From: a virus
Length of the DNA stretch: 26,797 bases
Virus record (IMG/VR): IMGVR_UViG_3300011114_000353
Span: 1 to 26,797 of that record
Direction: 5' to 3' (one strand)
The position numbers and the translations under genes are program-made. The notes under the pieces were generated by a model. That model was not told where the DNA came from, did no database searches, and saw only the letters and a list, made by a program, of their open reading frames with translations. This document shows positions 2,636 to 23,550 of this stretch, piece by piece. Within the stretch, counting starts at the first letter, position 1; each line of letters opens with the position of its first letter.

Positions 2636-4501
2636 ATGGCTGAACTTAACTTTGGACTACTGACCCCGCCTGGCTCGCAGAGCATAGGCAACGCTTTTGC
2701 ACAGGGCATGGATCAAGCAGCGGTGGCTAGGGCGCAGGAGAACCAGAACGCGCTGGCTCAGTACACCTTGGGCAAAGCAAAGCGCGAGGATGAACAGCAG
2801 AACGAGTTATACGCCGCAGTGCGTCAACCCGGCTTTAAGTTAGATATTGGAACGGCTATGAGGTTCGGCGCGCCGGGTTTAGCCGCGTACAAAGCGCAAC
2901 AAGAGGGCGAAGTGCGCGGCGTAGACCTGCAAATTAAACGCAATACTCTAGCCGGACAACCCACTAAACAAATGCTTGACGAAAGTAATCTTCTCGACAA
3001 AGTTTTAGGCCAACTTCAGCCAAACGCTGCAAGAGCGCAAACGGTCGATGACGCGGTAAGGTATGTAGACGTATTGTATGACCACCCAATAGCGGGTGCA
3101 TACGCGTTAAAAATACAACCCAGAGAACAAGCAATTGCACAAGCCAAAGAAGAATTTGTTAAAAATCCCGATAAATGGCGCGCAGTAAACACTAACGTAA
3201 ACGGGTTGCAAATCGTGCAAGCCACCATGCCCAAACCGCAAGTTTTTGGCGGTGTCATAGGAAATGCAAATCCAATATCAGGGCCGGTAGGGGAGCGAAT
3301 ACCTAACACGCCGTACATACCGCAAAGTGCTACGGCTAAAGCCGAGAGCGACCTTAAAAATGCAATAGCAAACGGCGCGCCGCCTGCGGAAATTGCGGCA
3401 CTTACCGCTGCTCGTGATTCAGCGTTAATCGCCCAACAACAACGCGCGCAACAAATTGCTATATCGGGTGGGCAACTTAACGTAGCGCAAGGCAATTTAG
3501 CGTTACGAAATAGGGAATATGATCCGTATGGAATGTTTCCGCAAGTTATGGGTGGTGGTGGTGGTGGTGGTGGCGCGCGTCAATTAAACAACTTAGGCAC
3601 TACAACGCCGTTAGCAACTCCCGCACCCCAAGGGGCTGCGCCAACAGCCCCCGCGCCCCAAGCGGTTGCACCAGCAAGCATTGCGCCTATGACTGTGGCC
3701 GACGCGTTTAAAAATAATGTGACCGGGCCAGCATTTGTAGCGGTATTGCCGCCAACGGTTAGACCGTTAGTAGAATCTATATTGCGTTATGATCAACGCC
3801 CGCCCAGCCCTGCAACCAAACGCGGTCAGCAATTGCTGGAGTTAGTCAACCAAGCTGACCCAACGTATGATGCCAGTAAAGCGCAAACGCGTTACATAGC
3901 CAAACAAACCTTTGTAAAAGGGCCGGTGGCGGATGCAATTGCGTCAACAAATACGGCTATTGACCACATGGATACTTTAGCTACATACGGTGCTAATTTG
4001 AACAACGCTGATGTGCGTCTGGCTAACGCGGCAAAACAAGCAATAGCCGCGGCCTTTGGCGCAGACGCGCCTACAACCTTTGACGCTACACGGCGAATAG
4101 TAGGCCAAGAAGTAGTTAAAGCAGTTGTTGCAAACGGTGGTTCAATGCGGGAACGTGAGGAAGCGGCGGATGCGTTTAACAGAGCTAATTCGCCTGCACA
4201 GTTGGCCGGCGTGATTAAATCATACCAAGCACTATTAGGTGGACGCTTAAAAAGCACTCAACTACGGTATGAAAACGACACTGGGCTAAAAGATTTTCAA
4301 ACTAAACTTTTACCCGCAACTATCCGTGCAATTAGCGGTGCAACACCAGCCGCCGCTGGCGCGGGCGCAACTGTAAAACCGGCGGCAACAACCGCAAAAC
4401 CGGCGGCGGCAATTAAAATTAGTGGAAACGCTGAGTATGATAAGTTACCTAGCGGAACCTTATTCATAGACCCCGAAGGTACACAACGGAGAAAACCATA
4501 A
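2636..4501 (+). CDS. Internal virion / ejection protein
   Basis: 621 aa; ATG 2636 lies two bases after the previous stop, downstream of a GGGAGGGG stretch that can act as Shine-Dalgarno. The protein is mainly alpha-helical and Ala/Gln-rich. It has an N-terminal helical half, a Gly8 stretch and Pro/Ala linker (about residues 304-355), then a second half with the pattern RPLVESILRYDQRPPSP, QADPTYDASKAQTRY, NTAIDHMDTLATYGANLNN, which recurs in phage internal virion proteins. The C-terminus ends in KLPSGTLFIDPEGTQRRKP, a tail seen on several unrelated phage ejection proteins and possibly a packaging or assembly tag. The stop overlaps the next start (TAATG). No lytic transglycosylase motif was found. 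Confidence 0.65.
   Translation: MAELNFGLLTPPGSQSIGNAFAQGMDQAAVARAQENQNALAQYTLGKAKREDEQQNELYAAVRQPGFKLDIGTAMRFGAPGLAAYKAQQEGEVRGVDLQIKRNTLAGQPTKQMLDESNLLDKVLGQLQPNAARAQTVDDAVRYVDVLYDHPIAGAYALKIQPREQAIAQAKEEFVKNPDKWRAVNTNVNGLQIVQATMPKPQVFGGVIGNANPISGPVGERIPNTPYIPQSATAKAESDLKNAIANGAPPAEIAALTAARDSALIAQQQRAQQIAISGGQLNVAQGNLALRNREYDPYGMFPQVMGGGGGGGGARQLNNLGTTTPLATPAPQGAAPTAPAPQAVAPASIAPMTVADAFKNNVTGPAFVAVLPPTVRPLVESILRYDQRPPSPATKRGQQLLELVNQADPTYDASKAQTRYIAKQTFVKGPVADAIASTNTAIDHMDTLATYGANLNNADVRLANAAKQAIAAAFGADAPTTFDATRRIVGQEVVKAVVANGGSMREREEAADAFNRANSPAQLAGVIKSYQALLGGRLKSTQLRYENDTGLKDFQTKLLPATIRAISGATPAAAGAGATVKPAATTAKPAAAIKISGNAEYDKLPSGTLFIDPEGTQRRKP
3551..3574 (+). repeat. (GGT)7-GGC microsatellite coding for a polyglycine linker
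   Basis: Seven perfect GGT codons followed by GGC encode eight consecutive glycines inside the 621-aa ejection protein. They separate the N-terminal helical half from a Pro/Ala-rich linker. Gains or losses of a unit keep the reading frame, so linker length can vary by slippage without breaking the protein. Confidence 0.85.
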
Positions 4502-9973: not shown

Positions 9974-10109
9974 TTTTCTTCTCCAGTTGGTTAATGTTAT
10001 CCAACACCCGCACCAGCCCCCGTTGCGCGGCGTTGAACTGCCGGTAACGGATGGTTAGCTCGGCCTTCGCCGCCTTCAGCTTGCCCTTCAGTGCGTCAAT
10101 TCGTTTCAT
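9951..10109 (-). CDS. 52-aa coiled-coil protein
   Basis: ATG 10109 overlaps the helicase stop (ATGA), which fixes the start; a longer in-frame extension lies inside the helicase gene and is not used. The whole protein is a charged Lys/Glu/Arg/Leu helix (KRIDALKGKLKAAKAELTIR, DNINQLEKKIEK) with heptad spacing. Likely a coiled-coil partner of some neighbour; function unknown. Confidence 0.6.
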   Translation of the reverse strand: MKRIDALKGKLKAAKAELTIRYRQFNAAQRGLVRVLDNINQLEKKIEKTNVA

Positions 10110-11398
10110 TTCAATGCTTCCATAGCCAGTTGTGATAGGGATTTCTTGTCGTGCAGTGCGTCGTAAATCTTCTTGTCTACCGTACCCTCGGTCAGCAGAA
10201 CGTAAACCCACACGTCGTGCGTCTGGCCGCTGCGGTGCAGCCGCCCGATGGTCTGCTCGTAGAGTTCCAACGACCACGGCAAGGACAGGAACACCATGTG
10301 GCAACCGCCGAATTGCAGGTTAAGACCGTGGCCGGCAGACTTCGGGTGCGCCAGCAGCACCGCAATCTGCCCATTGTTCCATCGGTCAATGGCGTTCGGC
10401 TCGTCCAGCGTCACGGCGCGCGGGTAGCGGCGCTGTAGCTCTGCCAACTCGGCTTGATACTGATACGCAATGATCGTGTTGGCGTGCTGGTTCTCGGTCA
10501 GCAGGTCGTCCAGCACCTCAAACTTGTGGTCTGACATCCACTTCGTTTCCTTGCCCTCGGCGTAGACGAAGCCCGACGCCATCTGTTGCAGCTTGCTGGT
10601 GACTACGCCCGCGTTGGCCGCAACGGCCTGGGTGTCGGGGAACAGCACCATAAAGTTCTTTTTCATGTCCTTGTAGTCGGCCATGTCCATGCTGCAATTC
10701 ATCACAACCGTGTGCAGCGGCGGCAGCTTGTCTTTGTACTCGCCAGCGTCCAACACGAACGTGGCCGGTTTGATGCGCTCCATCACCTGCGCGAGCGCCC
10801 CGGCAGCGGGCGTCCACTCACCGAAGTCACGGTTGATGCAGTGAAAATACTGTTGCAGGAACGCGCCCTTGGCCCGGCCCAACAGCGACTGGTCGATCAC
10901 CTTGCACTGACCGAATACGTCCTCCAGCCCGTTGCTGGTGAAGCTGCCGGTCAACCCCCACCGAATCCGCATGTCGCCCAGCACCTTCAGCAACGCCTTG
11001 AACCGTTTGCCTGACGGGTTTTTAAGCCGTGTCAGCTCGTCAAACACCACACCGTCAAAGCGTAGCGGTTGCTCGGCCAGCCATTGCAGGTTGTCGTAGG
11101 TGGCGACCACCACCTGCACGTTGGCCTGTAGCGCCTTCACCCGCTGCGTCGGTGTGCCGATGACCACGGACAACGACAGCGTGGGTGCCCACAGCTTGGC
11201 CTCCACCGGCCAGACGTTGACGGCCACCCGCTTGGGTGCGACAACGAGAAACCGTTGCACCTCGCCCGCCGCCAGCATGTCGCGCATGGCGGTCAGCGTG
11301 ATGGCGGTCTTGCCCGCGCCCACAGGTGCTAAGATCATCGCCCTGTCCCGCTCGTACAGGAAGTCAGCGGCTAGGTTTTGGTAAGGTCTAAGTTTCAA
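10106..11398 (-). CDS. SNF2-family (SF2) DNA helicase/translocase
   Basis: 430 aa. Motifs in order: Q-like RPYQ (4-7), Walker A APVGAGKT (24-31), Ia VVAPKR (52-57), II VVFDELT (117-123, DEL in place of DEAH), III LTGSF (149-153), V SAGHGLNLQ (354-362) and VI QTIGRLHRSGQ (382-392). The RLHRSGQ form is typical of SNF2 enzymes, which use ATP to move along duplex DNA. The compact size without extra domains matches phage SNF2 proteins, often next to VRR-NUC and methyltransferase genes as here. Start is TTG 11398, with AGAGG about 7 bases upstream; it overlaps the methyltransferase stop by 11 bases. Probable role in phage replication, recombination or fork processing. Confidence 0.85.
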   Translation of the reverse strand: MKLRPYQNLAADFLYERDRAMILAPVGAGKTAITLTAMRDMLAAGEVQRFLVVAPKRVAVNVWPVEAKLWAPTLSLSVVIGTPTQRVKALQANVQVVVATYDNLQWLAEQPLRFDGVVFDELTRLKNPSGKRFKALLKVLGDMRIRWGLTGSFTSNGLEDVFGQCKVIDQSLLGRAKGAFLQQYFHCINRDFGEWTPAAGALAQVMERIKPATFVLDAGEYKDKLPPLHTVVMNCSMDMADYKDMKKNFMVLFPDTQAVAANAGVVTSKLQQMASGFVYAEGKETKWMSDHKFEVLDDLLTENQHANTIIAYQYQAELAELQRRYPRAVTLDEPNAIDRWNNGQIAVLLAHPKSAGHGLNLQFGGCHMVFLSLPWSLELYEQTIGRLHRSGQTHDVWVYVLLTEGTVDKKIYDALHDKKSLSQLAMEALK

Positions 11399-12512
11399 GG
11401 TACGCCTCTATGAAGACTTGCGCGACTTGCGGGACGATGGCGTTGCCGTAGGCGCGCAGGCGTCCCACGCGGGCGGTAGCCCCATGAGCCAGCGGGAATG
11501 TGCCGGGTTCAACTGGCCGGGCTTTTCCGTCGCGGCAGGGGAGCCAATCGCAGTTAGACCAGAAACCGCATTGGCTAACGTGTCCGTTGGGTTGCCTTTG
11601 CGTTCCTGCCGCCCCGCCCCCGATGGGCCTTTGTAATCTCTCGTCGTCGTCGTCGGCCAACTCGCCAACAGCGCAAAGTCGTTCAAATCCTTGCTGTAGG
11701 GTTTGTTGTGTGGGTTGAGCGCCTTCTCGTCCCATCCGTTCTTGTTGTCCCGTGTTTGCGGTGTCGGCCAACTGGTCAACGTCACCACCTCGCGCAGATT
11801 CCCCGACACCGTGCGCCCCGGCCTGCCCGGATGGTTCAACCGTTTTTCGTAATCCATCGGCGGCAAGGTGTCCATTGTTTGCGGCGTCGGCCAACTCGCC
11901 AATGTCGGATCTGCGTTGGTCAGCAACGCTATCGTTTGCGTTTGCAAGTGTGTTGCTCGGTGCATTGGCCGACCCGTCGTGCGGGGTGTGCTGAACACTC
12001 CGTCCAACGCTTTGGGTGTCTGCCACAAACCAAAGTCTTTGTCTGATGTGCGGCGCCCCGACGCCGCCAGCCGGTATACCAACCGCCCCGCAGGCGTAAC
12101 CTTCTCCCTCCAAGTTAGCTTGAACAAGGTCAAGCCATCCGTGGTTAATCGCGCTTTCAACTTGCTCACCAAAGATAACGTCAGGTCGGCACTCGCGGAT
12201 GAGATTGAACCAGGTAGGCCAGAGGTGTCGATCATCAGCGGTGCCTTTTTGGGTGCCTGCGGCGCTGAAGGGCTGGCACGGGCAACTGCCCGTCCAAACA
12301 GGTCTGTCCTCGGGCCATCCGGCGAGGCGCAAGGCGTGACTCCAGCCGCCAAGTCCGGCAAAGAAATGGCACTGAATAAATCCGGTAAGGTCACTGGCTC
12401 TAACATCCTTGATGCTCCTTGTGTCAACTTCACCTTGGGGCAAATGCCCCGCGTCTATCAGATTGCGTAGCCACTGCGCGGCATACGGGTCAAACTCGTT
12501 GTAGTAGTTCAT
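11388..12512 (-). CDS. DNA cytosine-C5 methyltransferase (Dcm-like)
   Basis: 374 aa from ATG 12512 (GTG 12521 would add three residues). A phage-type N-terminal region ([18 protein letters not shown]) precedes the catalytic motifs: I FAGLGGW (51-57), [11 protein letters not shown] with nucleophile C79, VI GEQVES (115-120, EQV instead of the usual ENV) and VIII RQRLWF (157-162). Motif IX/X follows near the C-terminus ([20 protein letters not shown]). It transfers a methyl group from S-adenosylmethionine to C5 of cytosine, probably protecting phage DNA from restriction. The target-recognition region between VIII and IX is low in complexity and carries several LAD-starting repeats. Almost the whole gene also encodes another frame (see the nested CDS). 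No partner endonuclease is seen, so it is an orphan enzyme here. Confidence 0.85.
11408..12406 (-). CDS. Nested gene inside the methyltransferase: W-P-T-P-Q-T repeat protein
   Basis: 332 aa in a different frame of the same strand, entirely within the methyltransferase gene. ATG 12406 has a perfect AAGGAG eight bases upstream. The N-terminus ([40 protein letters not shown]) leads to a helical region (about 75-100) and [19 protein letters not shown]. Then come further W-P-T-P-type repeats at W172, W213 and W250, and a C-terminus [19 protein letters not shown]...[10 protein letters not shown] recall this arrangement from many phage and bacterial 'hypothetical' proteins, so the frame looks like a true protein rather than chance. 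TAG 11408 is nine bases upstream of the helicase start codon. Function unknown; it might be a methyltransferase partner. Overlap and SD are seen directly; family recognition is from memory. Confidence 0.7.
12415..12420 (-). promoter_or_regulatory. Shine-Dalgarno of the nested gene
   Basis: On the minus strand AAGGAG is followed by 8 bases and ATG (12404-12406). It lies inside the methyltransferase coding sequence. It is as good as or better than most ribosome sites in this operon, which decides the nested start over the GTG at 12433. Confidence 0.7.
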
Positions 12513-12765
12513 CCACCTCACCTTTCGATCTAATCACAATGTAATTCATCCCCATGCGGCGCATCTCGGCAGCGAACACCTTCTGCCACGGTGACAAGCG
12601 CCCCTTTACAGTCTTGAGTTCCACAAACCACACCACGCCCCCTGGCAGCAGCACGATGCGGTCGGCCACACCAACACGCCCCGGTGACACCCACTTGTAG
12701 GCCACGCCACCATGCTCGATGGTGCGGCGCACAAGGTAGCGTTCAATGTCACGTTCTAGTATCAT
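12490..12765 (-). CDS. VRR-NUC domain nuclease
   Basis: 91 aa, nearly all one domain of the PD-(D/E)XK fold. The signatures are VSPGRVGVADRIVLLPGG (D35), VWFVELKT (E49, K51) and LSPWQ (Q61), which together build the metal site of VRR-NUC enzymes. The N-terminal E4 and E8 helix matches the family. Stand-alone VRR-NUC proteins are common in phages and resemble Holliday-junction or flap nucleases. It is the promoter-proximal gene of the leftward operon and overlaps the methyltransferase start by 23 bases. No clear Shine-Dalgarno precedes ATG 12765, so its mRNA may have a weak or short leader. Confidence 0.85.
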   Translation of the reverse strand: MILERDIERYLVRRTIEHGGVAYKWVSPGRVGVADRIVLLPGGVVWFVELKTVKGRLSPWQKVFAAEMRRMGMNYIVIRSKGEVDELLQRV

Positions 12766-22571: not shown

Positions 22572-23066
22572 ATGTTCCAGTCACTCCCACTGGCTATACG
22601 ACCTAGAGTTCAGGCGACAGAGGCGCGTCTGGATGCTATATACAAAGCTGCATCTATGGGGTTAAAAGGGGATTCACTAGCACTGGCGTCGGGGATGCTG
22701 CCTTTAGAGTACCGGCAATTGTGCCAATTTGACCCATTGGCCGAACTAGCGGCGCAGAAGGGCAAGGCGGACAACGAACTGCGCGCAGCGCAACGTCTGA
22801 ACGAGGCGTCAGATCAGGGCGATGCCAAGGCCAGCCTGGCAATACTTACCCACGTTCACGGTTGGCAACAAACATCCAACGTCAACATAAATGTCGAGCA
22901 GCGGATTAGTATCATATCCGCGCTAGAAGAAGCCAAGTCAAGGGTGATCGAAGGCAGTGCTACAATAGACGAAGCCCCCGAACGCATCAACGGTCGAGGG
23001 CTTCTTACCAATAACGATGAGGACACATCGCATGGCTACCAACATTCTAACGCAAGCGCGGCTTAA
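22572..23066 (+). CDS. Terminase small subunit
   Basis: 164 aa. Residues 14-100 match the phage small-terminase pattern I recognise: EARLDAIYKAASMGLKGDSLALASGM, then LPLEYRQLC, DPLAELAAQKGKADNE and ILTHVHGWQ. The first part forms the DNA-binding helix-turn-helix (about 20-52). The helical middle would oligomerise into the ring that recognises packaging DNA and stimulates the large subunit. There is no Shine-Dalgarno before ATG 22572, and a strong promoter ends 6 bases upstream, so translation is probably leaderless; the alternative ATG at 22656 would cut into the HTH. The last 35 bases overlap the HNH gene. The region after residue 128 is variable and acidic. Confidence 0.75.
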   Translation: MFQSLPLAIRPRVQATEARLDAIYKAASMGLKGDSLALASGMLPLEYRQLCQFDPLAELAAQKGKADNELRAAQRLNEASDQGDAKASLAILTHVHGWQQTSNVNINVEQRISIISALEEAKSRVIEGSATIDEAPERINGRGLLTNNDEDTSHGYQHSNASAA

Positions 23067-23550
23067 AGAACTCTTGCGCTACGACCCGGCAACGGGGCTA
23101 TTTACGTGGTTGCAAAACAAAGGCACACAGCGCAAAAACGCTATTGCCGGTTCGCGGCACACTACCGGTTACGTCAATATTAGTATTGACAGCAAACTAC
23201 ACCGAGCGCATCGGCTTGTGTGGCTGTATGAGTATGGTTGTTTTCCCGACGGAGAGATTGACCACATAAACCGCGTTCCGTTTGACAACCGACGCGTTAA
23301 TATACAAGTAGCGACGCGCAACCAAAACACGCAGAATACCGGCTTACAATGTAATAACGTCTCGGGCCACCGAGGTATTGGCTGGAATAAACAGCAACAA
23401 AAATGGCGGGCACGAATAGGTATTGACGGAAAAAACACCTATTTAGGGCGGTTTGATACGTTTGAAGATGCTGTGTCTGCGTATACTGACGCTGCAAGTA
23501 TTTACCACGCATATAGGCTGCAATGCAAAAGCCAATCTACTCCACAATAG
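23032..23550 (+). CDS. HNH endonuclease with AP2 DNA-binding domain (homing type)
   Basis: 172 aa from ATG 23032, with GAGGA eight bases upstream. An in-frame ATG at 23017 adds five residues but its start lies on that ribosome site. Residues about 57-103 are an HNH core: HRAHRLVWL, GEIDHIN (D77, H78, N80), DNRRVN and ATRNQNTQN. Residues about 112-160 form an AP2-like domain (GHRGIGWNKQQQKWRARI, YLGRFDTFEDAVSAY). This HNH_3-AP2 pairing is typical of phage homing nucleases that cut alleles lacking the gene. It sits between the terminase genes, overlapping the small subunit by 35 bases and the large subunit by 28 bases. It could instead have been adopted for packaging, as HNH proteins near terminases sometimes are. 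Confidence 0.85.
   Translation: MATNILTQARLKELLRYDPATGLFTWLQNKGTQRKNAIAGSRHTTGYVNISIDSKLHRAHRLVWLYEYGCFPDGEIDHINRVPFDNRRVNIQVATRNQNTQNTGLQCNNVSGHRGIGWNKQQQKWRARIGIDGKNTYLGRFDTFEDAVSAYTDAASIYHAYRLQCKSQSTPQ

Follow-up and report, generated by a model that had tools for sequence, protein, structure and literature searches.

A phage C5-cytosine methyltransferase gene with a nested second frame that probably encodes an array of swappable target-recognition cassettes

The locus and its two overlapping genes

We analysed a viral DNA stretch of 26,797 nucleotides (IMG/VR record IMGVR_UViG_3300011114_000353, positions 1 to 26,797; hereafter the window), in which one minus-strand locus carries two overlapping open reading frames (ORFs), named here alpha and beta, and a short DNA repeat that both frames read through (Table 1). 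Alpha is a C5-cytosine DNA methyltransferase with a catalytic PC motif and an S-adenosylmethionine domain homologous to M.HhaI: it matches PF00145 (Pfam, 5.9e-16) and phrog_363 (3.5e-82), its sequence profile finds M.HhaI, and its model matches the M.HhaI structure in the PDB (Foldseek E 1.6e-8). Beta lies nested in the +1 frame and matches phrog_1008 (3.2e-26) and phrog_31772 (1.9e-17), both labelled 'DNA methyltransferase'; nothing in Pfam matched it above the cut-off. We propose that alpha and beta are probably the two parts of one split C5-cytosine methyltransferase, and that beta is its target-recognition half, carrying an array of swappable cassettes.

The conserved methyltransferase motifs are divided between the two frames. 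Alpha carries PCQPFS, RQRLWF and a C-terminal motif, which correspond to motifs IV, VIII and X, and the columns of all three are largely invariant or near-invariant among 49 aligned relatives. No motif IX was seen when alpha was inspected by eye. Beta ends with a motif-IX-like stretch and a short tail, and the motif IX string of M.HhaI fits this site best in 46 of the 49 beta sequences, compared with 2 of 245 trials with a shuffled string.

The start of beta bears the signals of a separate gene. A Shine-Dalgarno (SD) sequence precedes its ATG in the window, and an SD of at least 5 nt with an ATG was found in the beta frame at 50 of 138 loci, while the other two frames gave 0 in 276 tests; an SD of some kind with ATG or GTG is present at 109 of the 138. 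The alpha arginine that overlaps the SD is encoded by AGG in 30 of 102 loci, against 4.7% AGG for other alpha arginines. The order of motifs I–VIII (alpha), IX (beta) and X (alpha) could also be joined by two frame changes, so that programmed frameshifting would yield one product with no internal start. However, the beta frame is already open and conserved ahead of the array, across alpha motifs IV–VIII, it has its own SD and ATG, and two relatives (L266 and L269, described below) keep separate chains, all of which makes frameshifting highly improbable.

Table 1. Features of the overlapping methyltransferase locus, in window coordinates
Feature	Position	Strand	Remarks
Alpha, C5-cytosine DNA methyltransferase ORF, 377 aa	11388..12521	(-)	GTG 12521; in-frame ATG 12512
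Beta, nested +1-frame gene, 332 aa from ATG 12406	11408..12406	(-)	frame open from GTG 12433
Shine-Dalgarno AAGGAG	12415..12420	(-)	8 nt before beta ATG 12406
Alpha motif IV, PCQPFS	12264..12281	(-)	invariant in 49 aligned sequences
Alpha motif VIII, RQRLWF	12027..12044	(-)	first beta cassette begins directly behind
Beta cassette 1 (WQTPKALD...ADPTLAS)	11894..12025	(-)	diverged fourth repeat copy; no relative among parsed modules
Beta cassette 2 (WPTPQTMD...VVTLTS)	11771..11893	(-)	also at position 1 of locus L001 and position 2 of L037
Beta cassette 3 (...FALLAS)	11660..11770	(-)	also at position 1 of locus L094
Beta cassette 4	11579..11659	(-)	3' limit from parsing, approximate
38-nt repeat copy, cassette 1/2 boundary	11869..11906	(-)	repeat search
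38-nt repeat copy, cassette 2/3 boundary	11746..11783	(-)	repeat search; middle copy
38-nt repeat copy, cassette 3/4 boundary	11635..11672	(-)	repeat search
Motif-IX-like stretch, beta frame only	11462..11512	(-)	M.HhaI motif IX comparison
Motif X, alpha frame only	11421..11462	(-)	alignment of 49 relatives

Distribution of the two-frame layout

Two viral scans (115 loci), one genome scan (80 loci) and the window gave a set of 196 loci. Under strict rules, 169 of these, the window included, have an intact alpha, a beta with motif IX and the identical phase; among the 27 that fail (for example L005, L026, L027, L031–L033, L038 and L040), some were missed by a narrow motif IV expression and others are frame-shifted or cut off where the contig ends. 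Scanning separately for VEWLMGFP located 121 places, and at 116 of them an alpha-like ORF keeps that relative frame; tblastn with beta found matches in 197 of 50,697 phage records and 16 of 72,556 plasmid records.

A single-chain relative with everything in one frame was not found among the 121 VEWLMGFP places: by regular expression, none has motif IV in that frame, and the sole same-frame match to the alpha profile, L269, is a beta chain with motif X. The beta of L269 (reverse strand 3090–4153) holds its W-TP cassettes together with IX and X in a single frame. At L266 (4085–5598), alpha stops right behind motif VIII and beta holds W-TP-like cassettes, IX and X; the array of L266 is not dual-coded, beta being the only reading frame across it. 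An X-like motif in the beta frame was found at 5 of the 121 wider VEWLMGFP places.

The DNA repeat and its two translations

The 9-bp core of the repeat, TTGGCCGAC, stands in three exact copies on the minus strand (11652–11660, 11763–11771 and 11886–11894) and once on the plus strand (11965–11973). It is expected 0.36 times in the whole window, and four copies were reached in 0 of 100 shuffles. In a repeat search the core extends to three 38-nt copies with spacings of 111 and 123, the outer two being 63% and 84% identical to the middle one. A fourth, diverged copy, GTGGCAGACACC, lies at 12025 directly behind motif VIII and reads FVADTQ in alpha and WQTP in beta; the three exact copies read LADDDD, LADTAN and LADAAN in alpha and WPTT, WPTP and WPTP in beta.

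The original prediction, made from the letters of the window, had described at least three close copies of a repeat that reads as LADTAN/LADAAN in the methyltransferase frame and as WPTPQT in the nested frame. Both translations agree with that description, and the diverged copy at 12025 extends the three exact ones beyond the region first described. The repeat had further been placed between motifs VIII and IX, which is correct across the two frames and incorrect within either one, as VIII and X are in alpha and the IX-like stretch is in beta.

The exact copies also contain TGGCCG, which fits YGGCCR, the target of M.EcoHK31I. The wobble base is R in 84% of WPTP and in 82% of other array prolines, and because the wobble shows no enrichment over other prolines, the match is probably a coincidence.

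A shuffled array of cassettes in beta

Cutting beta at each W-x-T/S-x parsed 125 of 147 non-redundant loci (the other 22 failed the anchor) into 398 cassettes, with 0–6 per array. Non-terminal cassettes have a median length of 36 residues (5–95% range 29–45; the length parse covered 124 of the 147 loci), begin with WPTPxxRDxxGG, end with LxxxAxLAG and are variable in the middle. The unit recurs across related phages and bounds the cassettes.

The cassettes are shuffled between arrays. At 60% identity they fall into 155 types, 65 of which recur in two or more loci; of these recurring types, 52 occupy more than one array position and 45 have different neighbours on both sides. Not one type occurs twice in any of the 125 arrays, when shuffling the labels gives an expectation of 6.9 (and a minimum of 1 in 1000 shuffles), and at 70% identity the count is again 0, with 5.0 expected. 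Modules of the same array are at most 45% identical (mean 27%, 529 pairs). Tandem duplication was therefore rejected as the source of the repeat, and arrays appear to gain different cassettes, since no type is found twice. Of 189 cassette pairs whose DNA is 85% identical or more, 50 stand at different positions and 7 sit in genes whose 5' parts are less than 75% identical; visible sharing is mostly within related genes, with some across distant ones.

This array of different modules stands between motifs VIII and IX, and the modules are putative target readers. It is possible instead that the cassettes jointly form one recognition surface, or a protein–protein or anti-inhibitor surface, and that shuffling serves to escape a pressure other than restriction. 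The low confidence with which the beta array is modelled and the presence of arrays with one cassette only are in keeping with such a joint surface, but the lack of any type repeated within an array, a cassette number that ranges over 1–6 and changes even between near-identical genes, and the location of the cassettes upstream of motif IX, like known target domains, render it unlikely.

Recent cassette changes and isolated phages

Cassette exchange is visible between closely related genes: 139 locus pairs are 85% or more alike in the 330 nt that precede the array, yet differ in their cassette lists. L062, with types [3,12,5], and L076, with [3,27,5], are identical over 330 nt upstream and 110 nt downstream of the array; L052 holds [3,12,27,5] and L068 holds [3,12,5]. 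The deletions that separate L052 from L068, L052 from L076, and L085 from L089 measure 99, 111 and 96 nt; each length is a multiple of 3, and each deletion ends at the repeat element. Two of these three contexts share GGGATGGCCGACGCC and GGCTGGCCGACGC, as read by eye.

Ten Escherichia and two Rhodobacter phages were hand-picked, not sampled, among the matches listed. The Escherichia phages are 89–99% identical over the 300 nt before the array and carry one or two cassettes in six combinations. With types grouped by eye, these are [A] in K1ind1, ULINTec2 and fTaEco01, [X,A] in K1ind3, [A,Y] in phiEc4, [A,Z] in ZCEC5, [B] in KMB35 and SCS92, and [V,A] in Ivi and SHAK7693. Of the four cassettes in RcRios, RcJoli carries three. 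The epsilon15 array comprises 4 modules by eye, a fifth, first-placed parsed module being a parsing error.

The annotated coding sequences (CDSs) of the two frames are 825 and 693 nt in K1ind1 and 930 and 798 nt in K1ind3, an increase of 105 nt in both, because K1ind3 has one additional 35-residue cassette. It had been suggested that expansion of the repeat unit would lengthen both proteins at once; gain or loss of a cassette does have that effect, whereas duplication of a unit is not the route, given that no type occurs twice in an array. The nested gene of K1ind3 bears the label 'Mte8-like', and a passage of PMC5582158 names a 'putative Mte8-like protein' as one of nine genes by which otherwise related phages differ, with no explanation given there.

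Selection on the two frames

The two frames are under very different constraint within the array. In 80 cassette pairs chosen by DNA identity alone (80–97%), substitutions at alpha codon positions 1, 2 and 3 number 559, 132 and 65, and alpha position 1 is the wobble position of beta. Relative to random placement with the same transition share, the nonsynonymous-to-synonymous ratio (N/S) is 0.11 for beta and 4.16 for alpha; for beta it is 0.09 in pairs of 85–97% identity and 0.06 in pairs of 90–98.5%. Beta codons are conserved across whole cassettes, including the variable middles. Outside the array, the third alpha position takes 62% of the changes in the alpha-only 5' part, 54% in the 5' overlap and 42% in the IX–X region (1166 related, non-independent pairs; borders were found in 96 of the 147 non-redundant loci). 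Conservation thus lies with alpha in the core and with beta in the array.

The original prediction had named copies conserved only at protein level in one frame as evidence against it, and this is largely what we found, with beta strongly constrained and alpha not. Since substitutions are constrained in beta and unconstrained in alpha, LADTAN/LADAAN would be the shadow of the W-P-T-P codons. Selection for LAD itself was rejected as well: the base responsible for the alpha D is G in 70% of cases at WPTP, against 64% in other array prolines. An explanation in which the repeat is functional in both frames, the alpha peptides being selected as part of target recognition, can point to an alpha that stays open over the array (133 of 134 loci, see below) and to a 2012 paper that assigns the predicted target-recognition domain (TRD) to the larger subunit of M.EcoHK31I (PMC3404938). 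Against this stand an alpha N/S of 4.16 of random in the cassettes, the near-equal share of G just given, a disordered model of the alpha stretch, and L266, which has no alpha over its array; the explanation is largely refuted and in our estimation very unlikely.

The catalytic part of alpha is modelled with high confidence, as is the C-terminal helix at residues 359–371, while the part over the array (mainly residues 168–313) falls below 50 in predicted local distance difference test (pLDDT). The LADTAN peptides of alpha look like passengers, modelled as disordered. Nevertheless, alpha is kept open: in 133 of 134 loci selected on beta it is uninterrupted across the array, against an expectation of 7.6 when the synonymous codons of beta are permuted array by array. 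Nine loci were left out of this test, five because their best beta ORF has no motif IX and four because they have no W.TP; it replaced an earlier count (121 of 123, against 11.9 expected) that used loci preselected for an intact alpha. Alpha is apparently held open over the array to reach motif X, a view supported by L266 and L269, as these carry motif X on beta.

Cassette deletions that end at the element and a core in three exact copies might also be expected if the element were selected as DNA, as a recombination or protein-binding site, with beta an untranslated by-product. The conservation of beta codons throughout the cassettes, including their variable middles, the SD and ATG that favour beta, and L266, where beta alone is open over the array, all contradict this, and we regard it as highly improbable.

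Proposed mechanism

We hypothesize that alpha supplies the catalytic domain (motifs I–VIII), followed by a passenger stretch and motif X, and that beta, starting inside alpha from its own ribosome-binding site, supplies an array of cassettes of 29–45 residues and then the motif-IX-like end. Beta would be translated and would pair with alpha. Each cassette, with constant ends and a variable middle, is most likely one target-recognition module, and the array may give a single orphan phage enzyme protection from several restriction specificities. The DNA repeats described above are these constant ends, short direct repeats that are in register for both frames; recombination at them could add, remove or swap whole cassettes while alpha and beta both stay open. 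It is plausible that one cassette reads one target and that the cassettes set specificity, and this is the weakest link of the proposal, with an array modelled at low confidence and a beta that has no match in the PDB. On balance, we lean slightly towards the wider view that this is a widespread phage anti-restriction enzyme that stores combinatorial target-reader cassettes, encoded in one frame and kept open in the other, and that the repeat is a two-frame recombination handle by which specificities are added and dropped with both subunits intact.

Several points weigh against the proposed split enzyme with a recognition array in beta. Beta is modelled poorly, at a mean pLDDT of 53 with most of the array under 50, and by Foldseek the model finds no significant match in the PDB; neither does the beta sequence match the PDB, and beta shows no similarity to the multispecific SPbeta enzyme (hhalign probability 0.1). 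For the motif IX string of SPbeta, the beta site is the best fit in no more than 6 of 49 sequences. The 13–15 bp repeat at two deletion junctions was read by eye, and the computed exact slide is 0–4 nt. Cassette pairs and loci are phylogenetically related, and their counts are not independent trials. Finally, the predicted TRD of M.EcoHK31I is on the larger chain (PMC3404938), whereas the constrained array of the window is on the smaller chain.

Relation to known systems

The closest parallels are found in two-polypeptide methyltransferases. Lee, Kam and Shaw reportedly found in 1995 that the gene for the larger chain of M.EcoHK31I also encodes the smaller chain, in a different frame, which is how beta lies within the alpha gene of the window. 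According to PMC3404938, the larger chain of this enzyme (target YGGCCR) carries motifs I–VIII and X and the smaller carries IX, as alpha and beta do; the same text places the variable region and motif IX of monomeric enzymes in the small domain, and its passages on M.EcoHK31I mention neither a cassette array nor shuffling. The window enzyme works like M.EcoHK31I, to which it is likened by motif layout and not by sequence, but it is not filed as a proven member because the TRD-like constraint lies in the beta frame. In M.AquI (CYCGRG), also split, the smaller chain holds the distal recognition region and motif IX (PMC3404938), which resembles beta; its motif X is likewise on the smaller chain, whereas that of the window is on alpha. 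The M.AquI layout is shared by the relatives L266 and L269.

Temperate Bacillus phages carry several target-recognition domains arrayed on one enzyme against many restriction systems (PMC12707154). The enzymes of SPbeta, phi3T and SPR resemble the window in having tandem modules on one phage enzyme, the window modules being only putative target readers; they differ in being one polypeptide in one frame, whereas the window uses two frames and its beta has no detectable similarity to SPbeta. In domain movement (DOMO), recognition domains of Type I and IIG specificity genes change both position and number through recombination at flanking DNA repeats (PMC3077401). The presence of the same module at different positions and the deletions that end at the repeat recall DOMO, although movement in the window family would be deduced from such comparisons; DOMO concerns one to three domains in a single-frame gene, whereas the window family has up to six short, dual-coded cassettes. 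The window gene combines the ideas of a split enzyme, tandem recognition domains and DOMO, and adds dual coding.

The nested gene is already known from databases, and M.EcoHK31I provides a known case of a split enzyme with motif IX on its own chain. A description of this overlap with shuffled cassettes was not found in the openly licensed PMC literature searched, including passages of PMC8008677, PMC4659465, PMC6456624, PMC4081073 and PMC11445585. Public records disagree on which frame is the methyltransferase: K1ind1, K1ind3, fTaEco01 and Paenibacillus phage Arcticfreeze list both frames, phiEc4 and SCS92 list beta alone, and ZCEC5, KMB35, Ivi, ULINTec2, N15, epsilon15, RcRios and RcJoli list alpha alone. 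The SHAK7693 record may be frame-shifted, because its CDS starts like beta and ends like alpha. An annotation correction follows: many records leave out the nested gene, which appears to be the recognition half.

Long overlaps are usually thought to freeze evolution. Here, few parts of the gene change as readily as the overlap, since its cassettes are exchanged whole and stay in register for both frames. Should every cassette read a single target, a cassette-to-motif code for anti-restriction could be read from phage genomes, which is testable with the isolated phages K1ind1, K1ind3, phiEc4, ZCEC5, Ivi, RcRios and RcJoli.

Inserts and neighbouring genes

Some relatives carry inserts in the overlapping genes. 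A long insert in the beta of L115, upstream of the array, resembles an HNH-type endonuclease by eye, and both frames stay open through it. Another insert, in L113, lies near motif IX/X and is present in both frames, and L040 has an insert between the array and motif X. The alpha of L316 (Komagataeibacter phage phiKX1) is extended by a long insert behind the array and ahead of motif X, past the end of beta; its record annotates neither frame as a methyltransferase.

The minus-strand neighbours of the locus are a VRR-NUC-like nuclease (12490–12765, just under the Pfam cut-off) and an SNF2-type helicase (10106–11398), and the order nuclease, methyltransferase, SNF2 helicase is the same in Escherichia Kagunavirus phages. 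Elsewhere in the window, a plus-strand gene at 23017–23550 with an HNH_3 and a weak AP2 domain is likely a homing endonuclease and overlaps the start of a terminase ORF at 23523. A P22-like portal gene is also present.
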